64,000 nt of DNA from Stenotrophomonas maltophilia (GTDB lineage Bacteria; Pseudomonadota; Gammaproteobacteria; Xanthomonadales; Xanthomonadaceae). The stretch's first letter is position 1; every line of letters begins with the position of its first letter. The stretch is from contig NZ_CP106759.1 of assembly GCF_025642255.1 (NCBI RefSeq), positions 1,701,501-1,765,500 on the forward strand, given 5' to 3'. The notes beneath the pieces were generated by a model. That model saw nothing but the letters and a program-made list of their open reading frames with translations, was not told the origin of the DNA and did not search any database. A program made the position numbers and the translations under genes. Positions 5,067 through 42,614 of this stretch are shown here, in pieces.

Positions 5067-6146
5067 TCAGCGCAGCGCCACCTGTTCCCACCAGCGCGTG
5101 CCTGCCTGCGGCGCCTGCATGTCCAGCGCCTCGCCCATCATCGGCGTGGCGATCGGCACATCGTGCGCGGCTGCCAGCGCGGTGATGCGCTCGAAGGGCT
5201 GTTGCCAGTCATGCAGGGCCAGGTCAAAGGTGCCGTTGTGGATCGGCAGCAGCCACTTGCCGCGCAGGTCCAGGTGGGCCTGCAGCGTCTGCTCCGGCTG
5301 CATGTGCACGAATGCCCAGCGCGGATCGTATGCGCCGGTTTCGATCATGGTCAGATCGAACGGGCCGTACTTCTCGCCGATGGCCTTGAAGCCATCGAAG
5401 TAGCCGGTGTCACCACTGAAGAAGATGCGGAAGTCGCCGTCCTGGATGACCCACGAGGCCCACAGGCTGCGGTCGCTGTCGCCCAGGCCGCGGCCGGAGA
5501 AGTGCTGGCCGGGTGTGGCGGTCAGGCGCAGGCCATCGGCTTCGGTCGATTGCCACCAGTCCAGCTGTTCGACCTTGTCCGCGTCCACGCCCCAGGCGAT
5601 CAACTGATCACCCACACCCAGCGGCGCGATGAAGCGCGTGGTCTTGCCCGCCAGCTGCATCACCGCAGCGTGATCCAGGTGGTCGTAATGGTTGTGCGAG
5701 AGGATCACGCCGGCGATCGGCGGCAGCTGTTCGATGCTGATCGGCGGGGCGTGGAAGCGCGCAGGGCCCATCCACTGCACCGGTGACGCCCGTTCGGAGA
5801 AGACCGGGTCGGTCAACCAGTACTGGCCGCGCAGCTTCAGCAGGATCGTCGAGTGCCCCAGCCGGAACAGGCTGCGATCCGGCGCGGCTTCCAGCGCGGC
5901 ACGATCCAGCGCCTGCACCGGTATGGCGCCCGCGGGTACGGTCCCCTTCGGCTTGTTGAACAGGAAGGTCCACCAGATCTCCAGCCCGTTGCGCAGGCCC
6001 ATCGCCGGCCGCGGCAGTACGTTGTGGAACTTGCCCTCGCGGTATTGCGGGGAGTCGGGGAAGTCGGGGAGGGACCAGGACTTGCAGAAGGTGTAGGCGG
6101 TCACGGCGAGGATTCCAAGCAGGAGGACAAGGAGCAGGCGCTTCAT
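5067..6146 (-). CDS. MBL-fold metallo-hydrolase, NAPE-PLD/UlaG-like
   Basis: Metallo-beta-lactamase-fold hydrolase of 359 aa. An N-terminal membrane segment (LLLVLLLGILAVTAYTF) anchors or exports it. The metal-binding signature SHNHYDHLDH is at about residues 173-182, preceded by GHSTILLKL and followed by the SGDTGYFDGF and metal-ligand H blocks (LLPIHNGTFDL). This arrangement matches the N-acyl-phosphatidylethanolamine phospholipase D-like / L-ascorbate-6-phosphate lactonase-like group. The start is placed at the ATG at 6146, because the nine residues before it read into the divergent promoter. The neighbouring TetR gene is divergent and shares the control region, so this is its likely target. 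The physiological substrate is unknown. Confidence 0.85.
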   Translation of the reverse strand: MKRLLLVLLLGILAVTAYTFCKSWSLPDFPDSPQYREGKFHNVLPRPAMGLRNGLEIWWTFLFNKPKGTVPAGAIPVQALDRAALEAAPDRSLFRLGHSTILLKLRGQYWLTDPVFSERASPVQWMGPARFHAPPISIEQLPPIAGVILSHNHYDHLDHAAVMQLAGKTTRFIAPLGVGDQLIAWGVDADKVEQLDWWQSTEADGLRLTATPGQHFSGRGLGDSDRSLWASWVIQDGDFRIFFSGDTGYFDGFKAIGEKYGPFDLTMIETGAYDPRWAFVHMQPEQTLQAHLDLRGKWLLPIHNGTFDLALHDWQQPFERITALAAAHDVPIATPMMGEALDMQAPQAGTRWWEQVALR

Positions 6147-6163
6147 GGGTGACGTCCGCAGGG

Positions 6164-6214
6164 TACACTGCACAGTGTAGTTTCCTGCTGCGGAAAAGTA
6201 TACTCATCGGTGTA
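6164..6214. promoter_or_regulatory. Divergent control region with TetR-type operators
   Basis: TACACTG (6164-6170) and CAGTGTA (6173-6179) form a perfect 7-bp inverted repeat around a 2-base centre. A weaker copy of the same half sites (TATACTC ... GGTGTA) follows at 6199-6214. Both lie between the divergent starts of the MBL-fold hydrolase and the TetR gene. The spacing and symmetry suit a dimeric TetR regulator that represses its own gene and the hydrolase. Confidence 0.65.
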
Positions 6215-6249
6215 AAATGGGGGTGTCCGTTCAGTTATCTGGTGTCGCC

Positions 6250-6861
6250 ATGTCCCGTCCGCCGCAGCGCCTGACCGACCGCAAACGCGAGGCCATCGTG
6301 CGCGCGGCGGTGGAGGAATTCCGCACGGCCGGCTATGAAGCCACCAGCATGGACCGGATCGCGGCAGCGGCCGGTGTATCCAAACGCACGGTCTACAACC
6401 ACTTCCCCAGCAAGGAAGAATTGTTCTCGCTGATTCTGGAGGAACTCTGGGAACGCAGCATAGCCGGCGTCGAGCTGCCCTACCGTGCGGAGCAGCCACT
6501 GGAGCCGCAGCTGCTCGCGTTGCTGGAGCAGAAGCTGGAACTGCTGGGTGATGCCAATTTCATCGACCTGGCCCGCGTTGCCATGGCGGAGATCATCCAT
6601 TCACCCGAACGTGCGCAGGCAATCGTCTGTCGCATGGGCGAGAAGGAGAGTGGGGAAAGCGCCTGGATCCGTGCAGCGATCGCCGATGGCCGGCTGCGTG
6701 CGGTCGATCCCGAATTCGCCGCCCATCAGCTGCATGGACTGGTGAAGAGTTTCGCCTTCTGGCCGCAGGTAACGATGGGGCAGGCGCCGCTGGGGGCCGA
6801 CGAGCGCGCGCGGGTGGCGACATCGGCGGTCGCCATGTTCCTGGGCCACTACGCGCGCTGA
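6250..6861 (+). CDS. TetR/AcrR-family transcriptional regulator
   Basis: One-component DNA-binding repressor of 203 aa. The N-terminal HTH is clear: AIVRAAVEEFRTAGYEATSM, then DRIAAAAGVSKRTVYNHFPS KEELF, the standard TetR signature. The C-terminal ligand domain has the TetR_C layout seen in AefR-like members (VAMAEIIHSPE). The ATG at 6250 is preferred because upstream codons run into the operator region. It is transcribed away from the MBL-fold hydrolase and probably controls it and itself. The inducer is not deducible. Confidence 0.92.
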   Translation: MSRPPQRLTDRKREAIVRAAVEEFRTAGYEATSMDRIAAAAGVSKRTVYNHFPSKEELFSLILEELWERSIAGVELPYRAEQPLEPQLLALLEQKLELLGDANFIDLARVAMAEIIHSPERAQAIVCRMGEKESGESAWIRAAIADGRLRAVDPEFAAHQLHGLVKSFAFWPQVTMGQAPLGADERARVATSAVAMFLGHYAR

Positions 6862-6985: not shown

Positions 6986-8014
6986 ATGTCATCCGCTTCG
7001 GCGCGCCATATCGGCGAAGTCCTGCAACAGTCCTATGGCATCACCACCGCCGCCGTGGTGCCTCGCCCGGTTGGCGCAGACGCCAATGCCAGCGTTTACC
7101 GCATCGACGCGCGACGCGGTCAGTGGTGGTTGAAATGCCGCACCTACCAGGTGCAACCGGCGGTCTGGGACACGCTGCATTGGCTGCGGGGCACCCTGGG
7201 CATCGAGGAGATCGTGGCGCCCTGGCCGGCGTTGACCGGCGGCGCGTCGGTCCAGCGCTGGGGCCTGCAGTTCACGCTGTTTCCCTACATCGAGGGCCAG
7301 TCCGGTTTCGAGGCGCCGCTCAGCCATGCGCAGTGGCTGCGCCTGGGCAACGTGCTGCGCCGGCTGCATGACGCTGAGGTGCCCGAATCGCTGCAACGCG
7401 CGCTGCCGACCCTGCGCCTTGAAGCGGATGCGTTGACCACCGTTGGGCGCTGGCTGCAGCCGGGCGATGCCTTGCCGGTCGCGCAGGATCGGTTGGGCAG
7501 CGCGTTCCTGGCCGTCTGGGAGCTGCGCCGCGAACGCATTGCCGAGGTCCACCGCCGCGCGTCGGAACTGCACGATGAACTGCGCGACGAACGGCCGCCG
7601 CTGCGGTTGTGCCATACCGACCTGCATGCGGGAAACCTGCTGATGGGTAACGAGGGCAACCTGCACCTGATTGATTGGGATGGCCTGTCCCTGGCGCCGC
7701 GCGAGCGGGATCTGATGTTCCCCGGCGCGGCGGTGGGTGGACGCTGGGGGCGCGAACGTCCGCTCGGTTTCGTGGAAGGGTATGGCCCGGACCTGGGGGA
7801 CCCACGCTGGATCGCCTGGTACCGGCATTGGCGGATCCTGCAGGACCTGATCGAGTTCGAACAGGTGCTGCTGGGGGGCGACGCGCTGGAGCGCTCGCCG
7901 CAGCTGCGCCGTCAGTCGCTGCACTACCTGGGCGAACAGTTCGCGCCGGGCAATGTGTTCGACGCAGCCGAACGCGCGTATCGCGCGCTGGATGCGTCGC
8001 CGCTGCAGCGTTGA
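6986..8014 (+). CDS. Aminoglycoside-phosphotransferase-fold kinase
   Basis: APH/choline-kinase-fold phosphotransferase of 342 aa. It has a nucleotide-binding beta-hairpin (NASVYRIDARRGQWWLKC), the catalytic Brenner motif CHTDLHAGNLL and the metal-binding LIDWDGLSLAPRERD that replaces the DFG. The overall layout resembles spectinomycin/aminoglycoside phosphotransferase-like proteins found in many soil bacteria. Whether it acts on a drug, a sugar or another metabolite cannot be told from the sequence. It stands alone, convergent with the DMT transporter gene, whose end lies 8 bases away. Confidence 0.83.
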   Translation: MSSASARHIGEVLQQSYGITTAAVVPRPVGADANASVYRIDARRGQWWLKCRTYQVQPAVWDTLHWLRGTLGIEEIVAPWPALTGGASVQRWGLQFTLFPYIEGQSGFEAPLSHAQWLRLGNVLRRLHDAEVPESLQRALPTLRLEADALTTVGRWLQPGDALPVAQDRLGSAFLAVWELRRERIAEVHRRASELHDELRDERPPLRLCHTDLHAGNLLMGNEGNLHLIDWDGLSLAPRERDLMFPGAAVGGRWGRERPLGFVEGYGPDLGDPRWIAWYRHWRILQDLIEFEQVLLGGDALERSPQLRRQSLHYLGEQFAPGNVFDAAERAYRALDASPLQR

Positions 8015-8021
8015 CGGTGGA

Positions 8022-8945
8022 TCATTCGGCGGGCTTGGCCGCCGCTGACGCCGCCGCCGTCGCCGCCCGCCGCGACAGCACGGCCTCGCGGTGGGCGATG
8101 TAAGCGTTGGCGGCCAGAATGATGCCCGCACCGACGATGGTCCAGCGGTCCACGGTCTCGTTGAACAGCAGCCACCCGCACAGGGTCACCAGCGGCAGCT
8201 GCAGGAAGCTGATCGGCGTCAGCGCCGACACTTCTCCCAGGCGCAGCGCGCGCGTCCACAGCAGCTGGCCGACCGTGCCCATCACGCCGGTGACCAGCAG
8301 CCACAGCCAGGCCACGCCACTGGGCCAGACCCAGACAAACACTGCCGGAACCAGCGAAAGCGGCACCCAGAAGACGTAGGTATAGAGCACTACGGTATCG
8401 GCGCTGTCCACGCGGGTGAGCTGCTTGATCTGGATGGCCACCAGTGAACTCAGCACCGCAGCGGCGACGGCGACCAGGCTGCCAGCGGTGAAGCCGGTGG
8501 TGCCCGGCCGCACGATCACCAGCACACCGATGAAACCGACCACCACTGCGGCCCAGCGGCGCACACGCACGGTTTCGCCCAACCACAGCACGGCGGCGAT
8601 GGTGACGAACAACGGTGTGGAGTACGAGAGCGATACCGCCTGCGCCAGTGGCAGATGGCCCAACGCCCAGAACGCGCACAGCATCGAACCCAGGCCGATC
8701 GCACTACGCACGAAGTAGCGTGGCAGCTGCTGGGTCTTCAGCGGCGCATGGCCCGGCCGCAGCAGCATCGGCAGCAGTGCCAGCAGGCCGAACGCGTTGC
8801 GGAAGAAGGCGACCTCCTGGGTCGGTACGTAACGGGTGGCGTAACGGATCGCCACCGCCATCATGCCGAACGCCAGGGTGCTGCCGAGCATCAGCAGCGC
8901 CGCCCGCATCGGGGTGGCGCCGGTGGAAAGGGCGGGGGTGTTCAC
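8022..8945 (-). CDS. EamA-family DMT transporter
   Basis: Inner-membrane drug/metabolite exporter of 307 aa with ten predicted helices in two EamA repeats (first from [19 protein letters not shown], second from [18 protein letters not shown]). The second GTG at 8945 is chosen as the start because it overlaps the murB stop as GTGA, a translational-coupling arrangement repeated between pyrD and murB; a GTG one codon earlier (8948) is also possible. It is the last gene of the pyrD-murB operon. The C-terminus is Ala-rich and cytoplasmic. Substrate unknown. Confidence 0.88.
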
Positions 8946-34512: not shown

Positions 34513-34589
34513 GGCCCCGTAGCTCAGCTGGATAGAGCGTCCCCCTCCTAAGGGGAAGGTCGCCCGTTCGAATCGGGCCGGGGTCACCA
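34513..34589 (+). tRNA. tRNA-Arg (anticodon CCU)
   Basis: A complete 77-base cloverleaf including encoded CCA. The acceptor stem GGCCCCG pairs with CGGGGTC (one G-U), the D-arm is AGCTCAGCTGGATAGAGC, the anticodon loop is CTCCTAA with anticodon CCT flanked by a 5-bp stem (TCCCC/GGGGA), and the T-arm is GCCCGTTCGAATCGGGC. It reads AGG arginine codons. Its 3' 49 bases form the attL repeat of the adjacent prophage remnant; a partial copy is at 42566-42614. Confidence 0.97.
34541..34589. repeat. attL: 49-bp direct repeat
   Basis: The 3' part of tRNA-Arg(CCU) from CCCCCTCCTAAGG to CGGGGTCACCA is repeated without mismatch at 42566-42614. Integration therefore leaves an intact tRNA at this left end. 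Confidence 0.95.
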
Positions 34590-34694
34590 GAATCAATGAG
34601 TTGCGTCGTTTCTTTAGAGAGGCTCAGCTCTATATCGCCGTGAATAGGCCGATTTCTGGCACAGTTGGCACAGTTCAATCGAGCTGTGCTGACC

Positions 34695-35582
34695 ATGGAA
34701 GAGCCTGAGAAGATGGACCTCTACTGCTGCTTGTCGTCTCTTCAGCTGGGAGGCCAGACGTTCGACCTGGGCCGTGGGTTGTCGATTGCCCCCGCTTACA
34801 CGCATGTCATGTCCAGCGCGATGATTGCCGTTAAGCGACCAGCAGCACCGGGCCGGCATCATCCCGGTCCTTGGGCTGCGACGGGGAACGGGTTCGCTTT
34901 CGATTCCGAGGCAGTTCTTTTTATCCCCGCAGGCTACAGTCGCGCCAAGTCTGACTCCGGAGCCGTGGCACGATACATCGCAGGGCTGCTTCGCCTGTGG
35001 GTCGATCCTCGGATTCGCTGGATCCTGGCGTCCAATATCCCTCCTCACAAAATTGAATGGGCGCCTGAAAAGGGGAGGGTGCAGGTTGCTTCTGCGGTCG
35101 AGGTTCAGCCCTGGTACTTCGAACTGCATCCGGCGACTGAAAGGGATGCTTTGAAGGATTTGGAGTGGATTCGAGATCACTGGGAAGCCGCGATCGATCT
35201 GGCTGAATCGAGCGCATCGTTCAGCCTGGCGTTGGACGCAATTTCGAACGTTCAATTGGTTCACAGCTCTGCCCTTGGACTGGTCTCTGTCTGGGGCGCA
35301 CTTGAAGCTCTTTTCACGGGGGCAAATAGCGAGCTCAGGTTTCGCGTATCAGTGATGATCGCCGCCTACCTGAGAGGTCCGGGGCCCGAGCGAATCGCCC
35401 AGCACAAGCGAGTCATGAAGCTCTACGACGCGAGGTCTGCCGCAGCCCACGGGTCTCCAAAGCATTCCTCGGACGACTTGCTGGCATCGCTGGAGCTACT
35501 GCGCAAAGTCATCATAAAGATGATCGAGTCCAGGCGTGTACCGACAAAGGAAGAGCTCGAAAGCCTTCTGTTTGGTGCATAG
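34695..35582 (+). CDS. ApeA-like HEPN-domain protein
   Basis: Cargo gene placed just inside attL. The 295-aa protein has no signal peptide or membrane helix. The N-terminal ~170 residues are beta-rich and unrecognised. The C-terminal part, from SSALGLVSVWGALEALF through LRFRVSVMIAAYLRG to KLYDARSAAAHG and ELLRKVIIKMIE, matches the ApeA-type HEPN domain, with an intact R-x4-H motif (R-SAAA-H) that forms the RNase site in active HEPN proteins. HEPN RNases often act in toxin-antitoxin and phage-exclusion systems. The start is uncertain (ATG 34695, ATG 34710 or TTG 34665). It is convergent with the integrase remnant. The defence role is an inference. Confidence 0.75.
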   Translation: MEEPEKMDLYCCLSSLQLGGQTFDLGRGLSIAPAYTHVMSSAMIAVKRPAAPGRHHPGPWAATGNGFAFDSEAVLFIPAGYSRAKSDSGAVARYIAGLLRLWVDPRIRWILASNIPPHKIEWAPEKGRVQVASAVEVQPWYFELHPATERDALKDLEWIRDHWEAAIDLAESSASFSLALDAISNVQLVHSSALGLVSVWGALEALFTGANSELRFRVSVMIAAYLRGPGPERIAQHKRVMKLYDARSAAAHGSPKHSSDDLLASLELLRKVIIKMIESRRVPTKEELESLLFGA

Positions 35583-35589
35583 AAGCGAG

Positions 35590-36135
35590 TCAGTACCTCA
35601 GCTTTGAGACGGCGCCGTCATCTCCATCTGGAGTCAGGTGAGCGTAGTACTTCTCAGTGGTTGCATAGTCTGCATGACCCGCGAGTAGCTGAACGCGACG
35701 CAATGGCACGCCAGCCATCACCATGTGGGCGCAGAACGTATGGCGAAGCCTGTGCAGATGCCCACCGACGCCGGCCAGCTCCGAATCCTTCTTGAACCAG
35801 TCCGACACGGTGTCCTTGTGCACGGTGACGAGCGGATCTGGCAGGTGGCGCAGCGCCCATCTGGCATAACGGTTGAGGGGAACCTCCCGCCACTTCCCTG
35901 ACTTCGTGCGGCCTTCGCCGCTTTCGTCCGGATCGCTTTCCACGAGGAGGCGCCCGGCCACGACTGAGCTCTTCTCCAGACCGATAATCTCGCCTCGCCT
36001 TAGCCCGGTGTGGGCCATGAAGAGCCACAGCGGCGCCCGCTCAGGATTCGCCCGATACAGCCGGCGCATTGCCGCTCGGCCACGCGCGGACAGACGCAAT
36101 GGCGACTGGGCATGCGGCTGGTGCCAATCACGCAC
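35590..36135 (-). pseudogene. Tyrosine integrase, N-terminally truncated
   Basis: C-terminal catalytic domain of a phage tyrosine recombinase, 181 aa from a GTG at 36135 against roughly 330-400 aa for complete phage integrases. All catalytic positions remain: Arg in HTGLRRGEIIGL, Lys in TKSGKWREV, the HxxR in HRLRHTF, His in LLAGHADYATTEKYY and the final nucleophile Tyr. The arm-binding and core-binding N-terminal domains are gone; the sequence beyond the GTG reads straight into antisense ninB. The fragment is therefore a deletion product and is unlikely to catalyse integration or excision alone. Confidence 0.88.
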
Positions 36136-36167
36136 TACGCCGGCCCGCTGTCGAAGAGGGAAGCAGA

Positions 36168-36572
36168 GTGACCTCCATCCGTCCCGAAGACTGGAAGCAG
36201 CGCGGCGAAGGCATGATGACCCCCAAGCAGCAGCGCATGCTCAACGCCATCTGCGGCGACTTGGCCGAGGGCCTGTCCTGGCACGGCCAGCGTCTGACGA
36301 AGGACGACTGGCGCCACATGGTGGCGGGCACGATGCTGGGTTGGCGCCTGATGCCGGCGATCGACCGGGGGCAGGGCGCCCCCGGAATGATCATGCTCGG
36401 CGGCTCAAGCTTGAAGCTCACCAGGTCGATGGCATGCGACGCAATCACCGTGCTGGTTCAGATCGGTGATCACCCCGAAGAGCAGGGCCTACGCGCCACG
36501 CCGGTTCGCTGGTCCGACACCGTGCTGCTCGGTCTTGGGTTCAATCCTCACGATTTTTCGGAGGCTGCGTGA
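36168..36572 (+). CDS. ninB: NinB-family recombination protein
   Basis: Phage DNA recombination protein (Orf family of lambda) of 134 aa that binds single-stranded DNA and helps load recombinase. The central block LSWHGQRLTKDDWRHMVAG, TMLGWRLMPAIDRGQG and the closing RWSDTVLLGLGFNP show the NinB family. GTG at 36168 is chosen because AGAGGG lies 7 bases upstream; the extra 33 codons further upstream read into integrase antisense. In lambda it starts the nin region, and here too rusA and a Q-like gene follow. An unrelated antisense gene separates it from the rest. Confidence 0.86.
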   Translation: MTSIRPEDWKQRGEGMMTPKQQRMLNAICGDLAEGLSWHGQRLTKDDWRHMVAGTMLGWRLMPAIDRGQGAPGMIMLGGSSLKLTRSMACDAITVLVQIGDHPEEQGLRATPVRWSDTVLLGLGFNPHDFSEAA

Positions 36573-36580
36573 GCACGAAC

Positions 36581-37243
36581 CTATTCAGCAGTACCTGCTG
36601 CAGCTTCCGCTGCAGCGGCTTTTCTTGCTGCGACCTGGGCCGGAAGAGTGAACGTGTAGGTCAGGAACAGTTCCGTGAAACTCGCAAGTTGTGCAATTTC
36701 CTCTTCGCTCAGTTCGTCGTCATCGTGCGCACCGTGGTTTCCGTCAAGCCGAATCAAGTGCGCCCATTCCTTCAGGTCATCGGTCAGCTTTCCAGCTTTA
36801 TGAAGGGCGTCAATTCGTGGAGCGAGGTTCTTTCCGGCCAGAGCGGGATCGATCTCTCGCGTAGCCACGTCAAGCGCCTTTCTGTACATCGCCGCAGCGG
36901 CGTCCGCATGGCCTCGCGCCGCATTGTGGGCACCCTGTATGTACGCCCTTTCTACCGACGGGGATATGTGCTGGGGGACCTCAAGTCGCCCTGGAGCTGG
37001 ATATATCTTGCGTATTTCAGCTCCCTGGCTACGACAAACCTTCTGAAACTCACCATTTTCTCCCGTTATCCAGCCATGATTCGTGGATCTATAACTGATG
37101 GAAACGCAAACGAGATCATTACAGGCGTTGCATCGAAACACGACAGTTGGATCGACACCCTTAGGAGCAGCGGTCGCCACGTAAGACATTCCGACCGATT
37201 CCGCCAAGCAATGTGGGCATGTGCCCACGAAGGTAGTTGCCAT
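36581..37243 (-). CDS. DUF4145 (HEPN superfamily) protein with zinc ribbon
   Basis: Cargo gene transcribed against the phage genes around it. The 220-aa protein starts with a zinc-ribbon (CPHC at about 9-12 and CNAC near 39-42), followed by a helical DUF4145 domain with AYIQGAHNAARGHADAAAAMYRKALDVA, IDALHKAGKLTDDLKEWAHL and IRLDGNHGAHDD. DUF4145 belongs to the HEPN superfamily and the R-LDGN-H stretch gives an R-x4-H motif. The C-terminus is an Ala-rich helix. Such domains occur alone or fused in restriction and defence loci, but their activity is untested. Its ATG (37241-37243) overlaps the ATG of the divergent ORF at 37242 by two bases. Confidence 0.75.
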   Translation of the reverse strand: MATTFVGTCPHCLAESVGMSYVATAAPKGVDPTVVFRCNACNDLVCVSISYRSTNHGWITGENGEFQKVCRSQGAEIRKIYPAPGRLEVPQHISPSVERAYIQGAHNAARGHADAAAAMYRKALDVATREIDPALAGKNLAPRIDALHKAGKLTDDLKEWAHLIRLDGNHGAHDDDELSEEEIAQLASFTELFLTYTFTLPAQVAARKAAAAEAAAGTAE

Positions 37244-37424
37244 GAATGAAATTCCTGTCCGGTCAATGGTAATTTCCGAGGAACTGAGGACGATCGACTG
37301 CAGGACTCCGGGGAGGCTGCTGGAGCATTATGAACGATGCTCAGAGGGGCAGCGACTCGAATATGTGGCCGCACTGGCGGTCGCCCTATGCGTCAGCGAA
37401 CAGCGGCGAAGGGCGGCCAAGTAA
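37242..37424 (+). CDS. Small phage protein, unknown
   Basis: A 60-aa protein beginning MNEIPVRSMVISEELRTIDC and ending in a basic RRRAAK. No family is recognised. It resembles the many short nin-region proteins of lambdoid phages in size and position. An AAGG site lies before the ATG. The stop overlaps the next gene's ATG as TAATG, so it is translated with the DUF1364 gene. Its start shares two bases with the start of the antisense DUF4145 gene. Confidence 0.6.
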   Translation: MNEIPVRSMVISEELRTIDCRTPGRLLEHYERCSEGQRLEYVAALAVALCVSEQRRRAAK

Positions 37425-37732
37425 TGCACGGAAACTACCGCGACCGCGACCTGCTGGACCTGGCGTATCGGATCCAGTGCACGCTCCTTATCCCTGGCGT
37501 CTGCGTGGGCGGATACGGCGAGCCTTGCCACAGCAACCAGAGCCGGCACGGTAAGGGTGGGGCGATGAAGGCCCACGACTGCTTCTTCGCCAGTGGCTGC
37601 CGGGCCTGCCATCAGGAGCTGGATCAGGGCCGCAGATACACCGAGGAAGAGAAAGCCCTCATCTGGCAGGCCGGCCATGAACGAACCGTTCTCGCCATGT
37701 GGCAGGACGGACTGGTCATGGTGGCCGTATGA
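37424..37732 (+). CDS. DUF1364 (YdfU-like) nuclease-type phage protein
   Basis: Phage protein of 102 aa in the DUF1364 group. It has a Cys/His pattern compatible with an HNH-like or zinc-bound fold: IQCTLLIPGVC, EPCHSNQSRHGKGGAMKAHD, and FFASGCRACHQELDQGRRYT. In lambdoid prophages the family sits in the nin region, near rusA, as here. The start at 37424 overlaps the upstream stop (TAATG) and the stop overlaps the rusA ATG (ATGA), so three genes are coupled. Nuclease activity is assumed from annotation of the family, not proven. Confidence 0.85.
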   Translation: MHGNYRDRDLLDLAYRIQCTLLIPGVCVGGYGEPCHSNQSRHGKGGAMKAHDCFFASGCRACHQELDQGRRYTEEEKALIWQAGHERTVLAMWQDGLVMVAV

Positions 37733-39551: not shown

Positions 39552-39625
39552 GCGGGTCTGGCCGAGTGGTCAGGCTGCAGCCTTCCAAGCTGCCCACATG
39601 GGTTCGATTCCCATGGCCCGCTCCA
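39552..39625 (+). tRNA. Phage-borne tRNA-Gly (anticodon UCC)
   Basis: Seventy-four bases with encoded CCA. The acceptor stem GCGGGTC pairs with GGCCCGC (one U-G), the anticodon stem GCAGC/GCTGC encloses CTTCCAA with anticodon TCC, and the T-arm is ATGGGTTCGATTCCCAT. The discriminator base is T, as in bacterial tRNA-Gly. It lies inside the prophage remnant just before an initiator-like tRNA-Met. Confidence 0.92.
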
Positions 39626-39691
39626 TCTACGCCCGTGACCCCCGACCGGATCAACCCTCGCGCCCAGCCGGCAGCGGGGCGGGCACCTACC

Positions 39692-39766
39692 TGCAGCGTA
39701 GAGAAGCGGCATCTCGCCGGGCTCATTACCCGGAGGTCGCCCGTTCGAGTCGGGTCGCTGCTGCCA
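39692..39766 (+). tRNA. Phage-borne initiator-like tRNA-Met (anticodon CAU)
   Basis: Seventy-five bases ending in CCA. The stem TGCAGCG/CGCTGCT pairs at six positions and has a T-T mismatch at 1:72. The anticodon arm is CCGGG-CTCATTA-CCCGG, giving three G-C pairs next to the CAT anticodon loop. Both the 1:72 mismatch and the GGG/CCC pairs are hallmarks of initiator tRNA. The T-arm is GCCCGTTCGAGTCGGGT. The D-arm is short (GAG/CTC). It could be a functional extra initiator tRNA or a decayed copy. Confidence 0.85.
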
Positions 39767-39782
39767 CCGCAATGAGGAACCC

Positions 39783-40277
39783 ATGGTGAGCATCGAGACT
39801 GTCGCCGCCGGTATGGGGTTCTCCCCGGGCCTGGCGCTGGCGCTGGAACAAGCCTGCATTCGCTTCGGCATCAACACCGAGCTGCGGGTCTGCCATTTCC
39901 TCGCCCAGGTGGCGCACGAAAGCGGAACCGGGCGATGGCTCAAGGAGCTGTGGGGTCCAACCCCGGCCCAGTCGCGCTACGAGGGCCGCAAGGATCTGGG
40001 CAACACACAGCCCGGCGATGGCTTTCGCTTCCGAGGGCGGGGTGGCATCCAGCTGACTGGCCGGGACAACTACACCCGTTACAGCCAGGCCATCTACGGC
40101 GATGATCGCGCGGTCCGCAATCCGGACCTGCTGGCCAACCTTCCGGACGCTGCGCTGGCCGCTGGCTACTTCTGGCAGCGGGATGGGATCAACTCGGTCG
40201 CAGATGCTGCTGATCCCCCAGCACAACCTTCTCTTAGCCGCGCGCGGATCGACCCAGTTCTTTCTCCGGATCTATGA
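39783..40277 (+). pseudogene. GH19 phage endolysin, C-terminally broken
   Basis: Lysozyme/chitinase-fold endolysin that would cut peptidoglycan at lysis. About 140 residues match GH19: CIRFGINTELRVCHFLAQVA, the catalytic-glutamate region AHESGTGRWLKELWGP, RYEGRKDLGNTQPGDG and FRFRGRGGIQLTGRDNY, then AGYFWQRDGINSVADA. The conserved last helix (INGG...GLxDR) is missing; after about 40203 the frame enters unrelated sequence and stops at 40277. The break marks a deletion that joined the endolysin to remains of later genes. A GAGGAA site precedes the ATG at 39783. Confidence 0.85.
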
Positions 40278-41027: not shown

Positions 41028-41516
41028 TTACTGGCAGTCGGCGTCATCAACTGGATGCTCCGGCGGACGGAACACTGGAACCGTAATACTCGTAAGGCCG
41101 ACGCGTCCACTAATCGACTGAACGAGCTCGCGCCAGTACGGCCAAGCGTTATAGGGGCCGTTGACCTTTGCGAAGTGCTCGAGGCACTTCGCGTCTAAGT
41201 CAACATCGCGGTCAATCGAGTACGTGATCCCATACTCGGCTTCGACTACGAGCGCGTCGCTGTCGCTCGGCTCGGTATCCTCATCCTCAGGAGCGTCGGA
41301 GGCATGAAAGACGAACCCGACCAAGATCGTGAGAATGCCCTCGGATCGGAAGCGCGAGTCATCGCAAGCCGCACGGTAACCCTGTCGGAGTCCGAGAGAC
41401 CCAGGGATGTTGAGCACATCAAAATTGGTCTTGACGCTGCTGCTGCGGAGCGTAACAACTTGAATTTCGACGTGCTTAGCTACCCGTCGCGCCAAATCGA
41501 GATTGGTAGTCACCAC
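41028..41516 (-). CDS. SecB-like chaperone of a toxin-antitoxin-chaperone module
   Basis: A 162-aa cytoplasmic protein resembling solitary SecB-like chaperones (Rv1957 type), which protect an unstable antitoxin. Features are beta-strand-rich N-terminal half with SFMP-free acidic loop (DAPEDEDTEPSDSD), the strand EAEYGITYSIDRDVD, then CLEHFAKVNGPYNAWPYWRE and LVQSISGRVGLTSITVPVFR, the conserved PYxRE-to-G(F/L)xxxxxP stretch of SecB. It is the third gene of the operon; GTG at 41516 overlaps the antitoxin stop by 7 bases. Canonical SecB, with its secretion role, should be encoded elsewhere. Assignment rests on this motif and the operon context. Confidence 0.78.
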   Translation of the reverse strand: MVTTNLDLARRVAKHVEIQVVTLRSSSVKTNFDVLNIPGSLGLRQGYRAACDDSRFRSEGILTILVGFVFHASDAPEDEDTEPSDSDALVVEAEYGITYSIDRDVDLDAKCLEHFAKVNGPYNAWPYWRELVQSISGRVGLTSITVPVFRPPEHPVDDADCQ

Positions 41517-41926
41517 ATGGCACCCGCGCGGGCTTCACGCTGCCCGAGAGGATTCAAGTCGTCCTTCCACTGCGTCTTTTGCCGCAGAGGAATGACGGTA
41601 TTCAACGCATGCGGCCTAACAGGAGCAGGAATGAACTGTCCAAAACGAAGCGGCTCAAATTTCACAACGGCGCGCTTCCCGCAGGCCCATGCCAAGTCGG
41701 AGATGGTTGCGAGGGTCGCATTACGCGCGCCAGAGAAAACCTGGCTCACATGAGATCTGCTCGTGCCCAAAGTACGGGCAACGTCAGCTTTCGTGATTCC
41801 GGCCGCCTCCATCATTTCGGCAATAGAGTCAAGTGTCCAGAGCTGCAATCGCTCGCGCTCGTACTCTCTGCGCGCCTCTTCGCTCTCTTCCTGACGGTTA
41901 ACCCACAGCTCATTTGCCGTATTCAT
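41510..41926 (-). CDS. higA: HigA-type XRE antitoxin with long C-terminal extension
   Basis: Antitoxin of 138 aa that should neutralise the upstream HigB toxin and repress the operon. The HTH is clear at about 40-85: LDSIAEMMEAAGITKADVAR followed by TLGTSRSHVSQVFSGARNAT and LATISDLAWACG. About 50 further residues (FEPLRFGQFIPAPVRP onward, ending GAMW) form an extension that plain HigA proteins lack; in toxin-antitoxin-chaperone systems this part is the chaperone-addiction (ChAD) segment. The start overlaps the toxin stop as ATGA, and the 3' end overlaps the SecB-like gene. A matching operator palindrome lies in the promoter. Confidence 0.86.
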   Translation of the reverse strand: MNTANELWVNRQEESEEARREYERERLQLWTLDSIAEMMEAAGITKADVARTLGTSRSHVSQVFSGARNATLATISDLAWACGKRAVVKFEPLRFGQFIPAPVRPHALNTVIPLRQKTQWKDDLNPLGQREARAGAMW

Positions 41927-42291
41927 CCATCTTCTCCGTTAAAACGCTCTTTGCAGGCTTCCGCAAAGCTGATATCGGCCTTGCCGTGCTTATCCTTCTT
42001 TTTCCGAAGTGCACGACAGATGATCAAGCGCCCCCCAGGCGCATAGAAGCAAAGCAACCGGATTTGGAACGACTTGAATTCGAAAATTCCGTTGCTCCCT
42101 TCCAGCTTCTTAAACTTCTGATCGTTGGAAATCCGGCCTCGCTCTCCCATGAGCTCGAAAAGCGTATCCACCTTGCGTCGATCTGAAGAATCGAGCGCGT
42201 CCAAGAATTCTTGGACCTGTGATACGCCATCGTCCGTGCAGAGAAGTTCAATGCATTTCTGGGCCCCCTGATACGCAATCTTGGTAGCCAA
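41923..42291 (-). CDS. higB: HigB/RelE-superfamily toxin (Gp49-like)
   Basis: Toxin of 122 aa, likely a ribosome-dependent mRNA endonuclease. The sequence VQEFLDALDSSDRRKVDTLF, KFKKLEGSNGIFEFKSFQIR and LLCFYAPGGRLIICRALRKK is the HigB-2/Gp49-type layout, ending in a Lys-rich segment and AEACKERF. It is the first gene of a three-gene operon, the toxin-first order usual for higBA. Start is TTG at 42291, supported by GGAGG 7 bases upstream; the weak start may hold toxin levels low. Promoter and palindrome lie 50-80 bases upstream. Confidence 0.88.
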   Translation of the reverse strand: MATKIAYQGAQKCIELLCTDDGVSQVQEFLDALDSSDRRKVDTLFELMGERGRISNDQKFKKLEGSNGIFEFKSFQIRLLCFYAPGGRLIICRALRKKKDKHGKADISFAEACKERFNGEDG

Positions 42292-42565: not shown

Positions 42566-42614
42566 CCCCCTCCTAAGGGGAAGGTCGCCCGTTCGAATCG
42601 GGCCGGGGTCACCA
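42566..42614. repeat. attR: 49-bp direct repeat of tRNA-Arg 3' end
   Basis: Identical over 49 bases to 34541-34589, including the encoded CCA. The upstream sequence does not continue as a tRNA, so this is only the partial copy left at the right junction. It marks the right end of the remnant; unrelated sequence follows. Confidence 0.95.

Follow-up and report, generated by a model that had tools for sequence, protein, structure and literature searches.

Two HEPN-type genes as putative anti-phage cargo in a Stenotrophomonas maltophilia prophage relic

A prophage relic of ~8 kb in the complete 4.12-Mb chromosome of Stenotrophomonas maltophilia carries two HEPN-type genes in separate slots, one proximal to the attachment site and one antisense between ninB and ybcO. 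The best overall explanation, considered fairly probable, is that both are prophage-carried cargo, probably encoding abortive-infection RNases whose activity is putative. As the slots hold interchangeable genes, and those of the first slot are mostly known or predicted anti-virus genes, the two HEPN-fold genes are probably remnants of anti-virus weaponry, not debris. The relic lies in a window of 64,000 nucleotides, the whole stretch that was analysed (Table 1). The core idea of an earlier note on this DNA, that HEPN-type cargo in these two positions is plausibly anti-phage, is supported on sequence grounds by the slot cargo of relatives.

Table 1. Features of the prophage relic (positions in the window)
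Feature	Position	Strand	Basis or remark
tRNA-Arg (CCT), intact, integration site	34513..34589	+	ARAGORN
attL core, 49 bp, identical to attR	34541..34589	+	exact repeat
Tandem TGGCACAGTTGGCACAG, left border of slot 1	34657..34673	+	distance from core conserved in occupied elements
Stand-alone HEPN-family gene, 295 aa	34695..35582	+	ORF from 34665; likely start ATG 34695 or 34713
Tyrosine integrase, C-terminal fragment, 5' part deleted	35590..36078	-	PF00589, 3.5e-19
ninB, 5' end missing	36079..36572	+	PF05772
DUF4145 protein, 220 aa	36581..37243	-	PF13643, 49.4 bits against the curated cut-off of 23.1
60-aa ORF, start codons overlapping with DUF4145 in CATG	37242..37424	+	same layout in 8/12 phage DUF4145 loci
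YbcO-like phage nuclease gene, right border of slot 2	37424..37732	+	
Orphan gene	41028..41516	-	phrog_16879
HTH antitoxin	41510..41926	-	
Gp49/HigB-type toxin	41923..42291	-	PF05973
attR core, 49 bp, copy of tRNA-Arg 3' end	42566..42614	+	exact repeat

The relic is bounded on both sides by an exact duplication of the tRNA-Arg 3' end, and in another genome of the same species (G042) the left flank runs directly into the right one at this tRNA, without an insert. The same core is also found beside this integrase family in other genomes. The integrase fragment shares up to 97% identity with intact integrases and is fused to ninB at ~36078. This is a deletion junction, and homology to two intact IMG/VR prophages (L023 and L025) starts at 36079. 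Both prophages match the nin region (ybcO, rusA, Q) collinearly, at 86–91% DNA identity, until homology ends at 40204, within the lysis endolysin gene. These data uphold the view of the earlier note that the locus is a phage relic with an attL and decaying phage genes. Phage-borne genes for tRNA-Gly(TCC) and tRNA-Met(CAT) lie between Q and the endolysin remnant (39552–39766), in a stretch common to both intact prophages. A further cargo block on the minus strand (41028–42291, GC 0.55) lies at the other attachment site, attR, and comprises a toxin, an antitoxin and an orphan gene.

The interval between attL and int, termed slot 1, was compared across elements of the genus that were collected via the window integrase, with the tRNA-Arg core sought beside int. 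Each species contributed one element (two in G084), none were picked by cargo, and G038 and G056, where the integrase match is short or degraded, were left out of the count. The core was at the expected place in 21 elements, which are not fully independent since they have an integrase clade in common. The gap between core and int measures 94–105 bp in 10 of these and 0.7–3.2 kb in the other 11. In every occupied element the cargo is oriented towards int, has a lower GC content (0.51–0.60) and starts after a conserved tandem repeat, which reads TGGCACAGTTGGCACAG in occupied elements and TTGGTCCCAGTGGTCCCAG in most empty ones and is probably an arm-type integrase site.

The contents of slot 1 are diverse. 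Besides the HEPN gene of the window, it holds PDC-M03A+B (G066 and, by sequence similarity, G037), a DUF2971 protein with a weak PDC-S31 match (G084), an AAA ATPase related to HEC-04 with a C5 methylase (G069), a Pycsar cyclase with PycTM (G030, locus L105), AbiLi+AbiLii (G040, L108), and a RelA/SpoT protein assigned to PDC-S33 at 2e-57 (G029, L110). The proteins in G078 (L101), G017 (L102) and G019 have no PADLOC match. PADLOC-type defence genes therefore fill 7/11 occupied slots, with no PADLOC match in the remaining four, the window's included, and it is chiefly this proportion that speaks for the HEPN gene having a role in defence. Comparison of these elements shows the attL–int gap to behave as an exchangeable cargo slot of phages with the window's integrase. 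Among the proteins found there, those of 251 aa in G078 and of 274 and 160 aa in G017 are candidate new defence genes. A literature search of open papers returned no description of the slot. In the accessible text of a survey of S. maltophilia defence islands, prophages and tRNA genes occur in many islands and this slot does not appear (PMC11680222).

As the earlier note described, the second gene runs antisense, with ninB on one side and further phage genes on the other. This ninB–ybcO interval, termed slot 2, holds an antisense DUF4145 gene in the window, G023, L023 and L025. In G063, G008, G058 and G069 the antisense ORF there has no Pfam match, and those of the first three genomes resemble each other in N-terminal sequence. 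Between the window and L023 the flanking genes differ by a dS of 0.3–0.5 while DUF4145 is saturated (pS 0.84, pN 0.16), so the slot 2 gene and its flanks do not share one history. This pN, set against a pS of ~0.8, also points to purifying selection on DUF4145. At ten other phage loci the DUF4145 gene is opposite in direction to its immediate neighbours in nearly all cases, and its GC content is below that of the flanks in nine. The interval is best described, again from comparison between relatives, as a second exchangeable slot in which antisense genes are swapped. The expectation that relatives would carry different genes at the same positions is thus borne out at both slots, with mostly defence-type genes in slot 1 and other antisense genes in slot 2.

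The att-proximal gene is intact and encodes an N-terminal alpha/beta domain (~1–150) and a C-terminal HEPN-like helical domain (168–283). R-x4-H and E-x3-[KR] are motifs that define HEPN proteins (PMC3710099). Both are present, the former as R247-S-A-A-A-H252, within the broader Rx4-6H pattern, and the latter as E213-x3-R217. Across 29 aligned homologues, down to 33–36% identity, R247, S248, H252, E213, F216 and R217 are invariant. The AlphaFold (AF2) model has a pLDDT of 87. When residues 168–283 were compared with 997 aligned chains, the best seven were all HEPN-containing, at Z scores of only 5.2–6.3 that may arise by chance for helical bundles; the best matches include 1wwp, the HEPN toxin 8xdj, AbiA and Csm6. 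A Foldseek search with the model against the PDB and viral models gave no significant match, nor did a PDB sequence search with the family, and no model in Pfam, PADLOC or NCBIfam matches the protein. Over the motif region the protein is related by profile (2.9e-8) to one from Sinorhizobium that bears a HEPN annotation. The 295-aa protein is judged very likely to be a HEPN member, because of its invariant motifs, the fold match and the one profile match rather than a curated family. Against its closest relative the gene has a pN of 0.26 and a pS of 0.77, which indicates purifying selection.

The antisense protein combines a zinc ribbon (C9–C12/C38–C41, CPHC...CxxC) with a HEPN-fold domain at ~91–203, and its Pfam score confirms the DUF4145 assignment. 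Its model matches 2hsb with a Z score of 14.2 over 113 residues, and the top 22 matches are almost all HEPN proteins, with HepT, Csm6, AbiA and the sacsin HEPN following 2hsb. A PDB sequence search gave only TPR and TFIIS-type ribbon matches, which carry little weight. The earlier placement of both genes in the HEPN superfamily is backed by a strong fold match for DUF4145 and, as very likely for the 295-aa protein, by motifs, a modest fold match and one profile match.

The active-site reading of the DUF4145 protein requires correction. The earlier note gave it as R-LDGN-H and held that both proteins keep R-x4-H, which is true of the 295-aa protein, where R247 and H252 are invariant, but results from a register error in DUF4145. 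Column 170 varies among eight close relatives (H, K, Q, E or D); invariant in the stretch R165-LDGNHGA-H173 are R165, G168, N169 and H173. In the family's other DUF4145 domains the conserved His falls at H173, and the Arg of a canonical R-N-x3-H, present in L115 and L128, aligns with G168. With 8 positions between them, the conserved R165 and H173 fall outside the Rx4-6H spacing. As H173 and not H170 is conserved and the canonical Arg is G168, the subfamily motif is [RK]xxGNxxxH. RNA-cutting chemistry by R165/H173 is uncertain, because the canonical Arg is Gly. This corrected reading of phage DUF4145 proteins bears on any mutant test.

Relatives of the att-proximal HEPN gene are sparse and scattered. 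Of 91 genus genomes (one per species, including one of the same species as the window) a single one has the gene, as do 4 of 397 genomes of the order, the window copy included. It is absent from 50,697 phage records and IMG/VR, and no active phage with the gene was found there. A single-sequence scan of genome contigs returned nothing; an alignment-based scan of 84,980 species genomes detected 27 loci, mostly in Proteobacteria, and one more lies on a Sphingomonas plasmid. One relative (L012) overlaps the end of the gene for a NACHT protein of 1480 aa, which has NCAB2 (1.8e-25) as its NACHT C-terminal domain and an N-terminus read here as HNH-like. Another (L002) is the first gene in a HEPN–unknown–SIR2 string behind an integrase, and a third (L048) adjoins a bSEFIR protein. 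The nearest relative (62%, L029) is an isolated gene between ureD and an aminotransferase gene. Overall, the neighbour tally reveals no single recurrent partner, and many relatives are isolated genes. The NACHT, SIR2 and SEFIR neighbours count in favour of the cargo explanation, the isolated relatives and the rarity of the gene against it. On a Sinorhizobium plasmid (L003), a HEPN protein related to that of the window (7407–8426) is encoded next to a DUF4145 protein (6032–6796) in divergent orientation, a second meeting of the two kinds that is possibly due to chance.

According to the favoured explanation, the relic descends from a lambdoid temperate phage integrating at tRNA-Arg via its tyrosine integrase. 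Phages with this integrase, as the comparison shows, keep slot 1 from the attL core/arm repeat to the int 3' end, and slot 2, antisense, between ninB and ybcO. The HEPN gene most likely acts as an abortive-infection effector expressed in the lysogen. Its N-terminal domain would sense an incoming phage or phage activity, upon which the C-terminal HEPN pair, a putative dimer with R247/H252, would cut RNA and growth would stop. The DUF4145 protein is probably of the same functional class.

Both genes could instead be neutral leftovers that once served the phage and have not yet decayed, in a relic without present function. Heavy deletion of the surrounding prophage fits this reading, as does the lack of the HEPN gene in G042 and in 90/91 genus genomes, and a scan upstream of this gene found no sigma-70-like promoter. 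It is opposed by the state of the two ORFs, which have kept their full length and every invariant residue next to disrupted int, ninB and lysis genes. This intactness alone is weak evidence, as it was deletion that removed the ends of the phage genes; on balance, neutral persistence is considered unlikely. A different role, in which both genes serve the phage through superinfection exclusion, host takeover or lytic-switch regulation rather than RNase defence, is given a smaller probability still. Here the DUF4145 protein may bind nucleic acid without cutting it, with the zinc ribbon as the suggested route. Such a role would suit the antisense position of DUF4145 relatives within the lytic operons of varied phages, the Gly at the canonical HEPN Arg, and the match to phrog_1305 (7e-40), which PHROGs labels 'DNA binding protein'. 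It is harder to reconcile with the known and predicted defence systems that occupy slot 1 in relatives and with the invariant R-x4-H of the HEPN gene product.

A further reading concerns the second gene only and is compatible with the cargo explanation. DUF4145 and the 60-aa ORF that begins head-to-head with it may form a two-gene module of a HEPN-fold toxin or defence protein and its inhibitor, whose expression falls in opposing phases of the phage cycle, like that of ith/tha. The CATG overlap with a similar small ORF recurs at 8/12 phage DUF4145 loci in two host groups, E. coli prophages among them, and three distant small ORFs score above 2,000 shuffles, although their HMM scores are weak (E 0.016–0.05). 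The arrangement is missing at the other four of the 12 loci checked (L018, L011, L144 and L145), and in some E. coli the small ORF is present without DUF4145. By analogy with ith/tha (PMC11087260), the product could serve as an inhibitor that is synthesised during lytic transcription directed against the DUF4145 gene. The ORF is a candidate partner or inhibitor of the DUF4145 protein, a lead only, and the module as a whole is judged rather improbable.

A broader proposal, which is tentative and on the doubtful side, joins three elements: the attL–int gap as a dock for defence cassettes, the HEPN gene as a member of an uncatalogued stand-alone anti-phage family delivered through this dock, and DUF4145 with the small ORF as a second, widespread prophage module. 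In temperate phages of the genus the dock would extend from the arm repeat of the integrase to the stop codon of int, and in the module lytic transcription would silence the DUF4145 HEPN gene and make its inhibitor. The attL–int gap of one integrase family offers a defined place to look for anti-phage systems. As it holds known defence systems in several relatives, the slot 1 proteins without a PADLOC match, the HEPN family included, can be ranked as anti-phage candidates.

Comparison with known systems places the 295-aa protein apart from its closest counterparts. ApeA is likewise a single-gene HEPN protein with R-x4-H, but its mostly-beta N-terminal domain (ApeA-NTD1) alone is ~300 aa (PMC3710099). 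The window protein totals 295 aa, with the HEPN part from ~168. The 'ApeA-type' label of the earlier note was dropped, as Pfam, PADLOC, NCBIfam and hhalign against an ApeA relative were all negative; PF18739 matched neither the protein nor five relatives at E values up to 5, and a search of the window's genome with this profile found none. Tha is a 301-aa, tail-activated anti-phage system with a C-terminal HEPN RNase, encoded by Staphylococcus prophages (PMC11087260). Both proteins are stand-alone, ~300 aa long and carry a C-terminal HEPN domain with R-x4-H behind an unassigned N-terminal part, and both genes are borne by temperate prophages, close to the int end. However, Tha is on the cI side of int with the overlapping antisense inhibitor ith, whereas the window gene is on the att side and convergent with int, and the host phyla differ. 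BLASTP and hhalign against Tha-1 of phage 80alpha were insignificant. The only library family that matches the HEPN gene product is phrog_28161 (8e-26), which covers its C-terminal half and leaves the N-terminal half unmatched.

The DUF4145 protein has closer counterparts. Members of DUF4145 (PF13643)/phrog_1305 share with it a zinc ribbon and DUF4145 domain over nearly the full length and, in phages, an antisense moron position, but the family motif is RNxxxH where the window subfamily has [RK]xxGNxxxH. BxaP, a DUF4145-containing anti-phage protein encoded beside BREX, has been tested experimentally (PMC10799925). BxaP differs in its C-terminal HEAT-like part and its linkage to BREX, while the likeness lies in an N-terminal DUF4145 within a defence protein.
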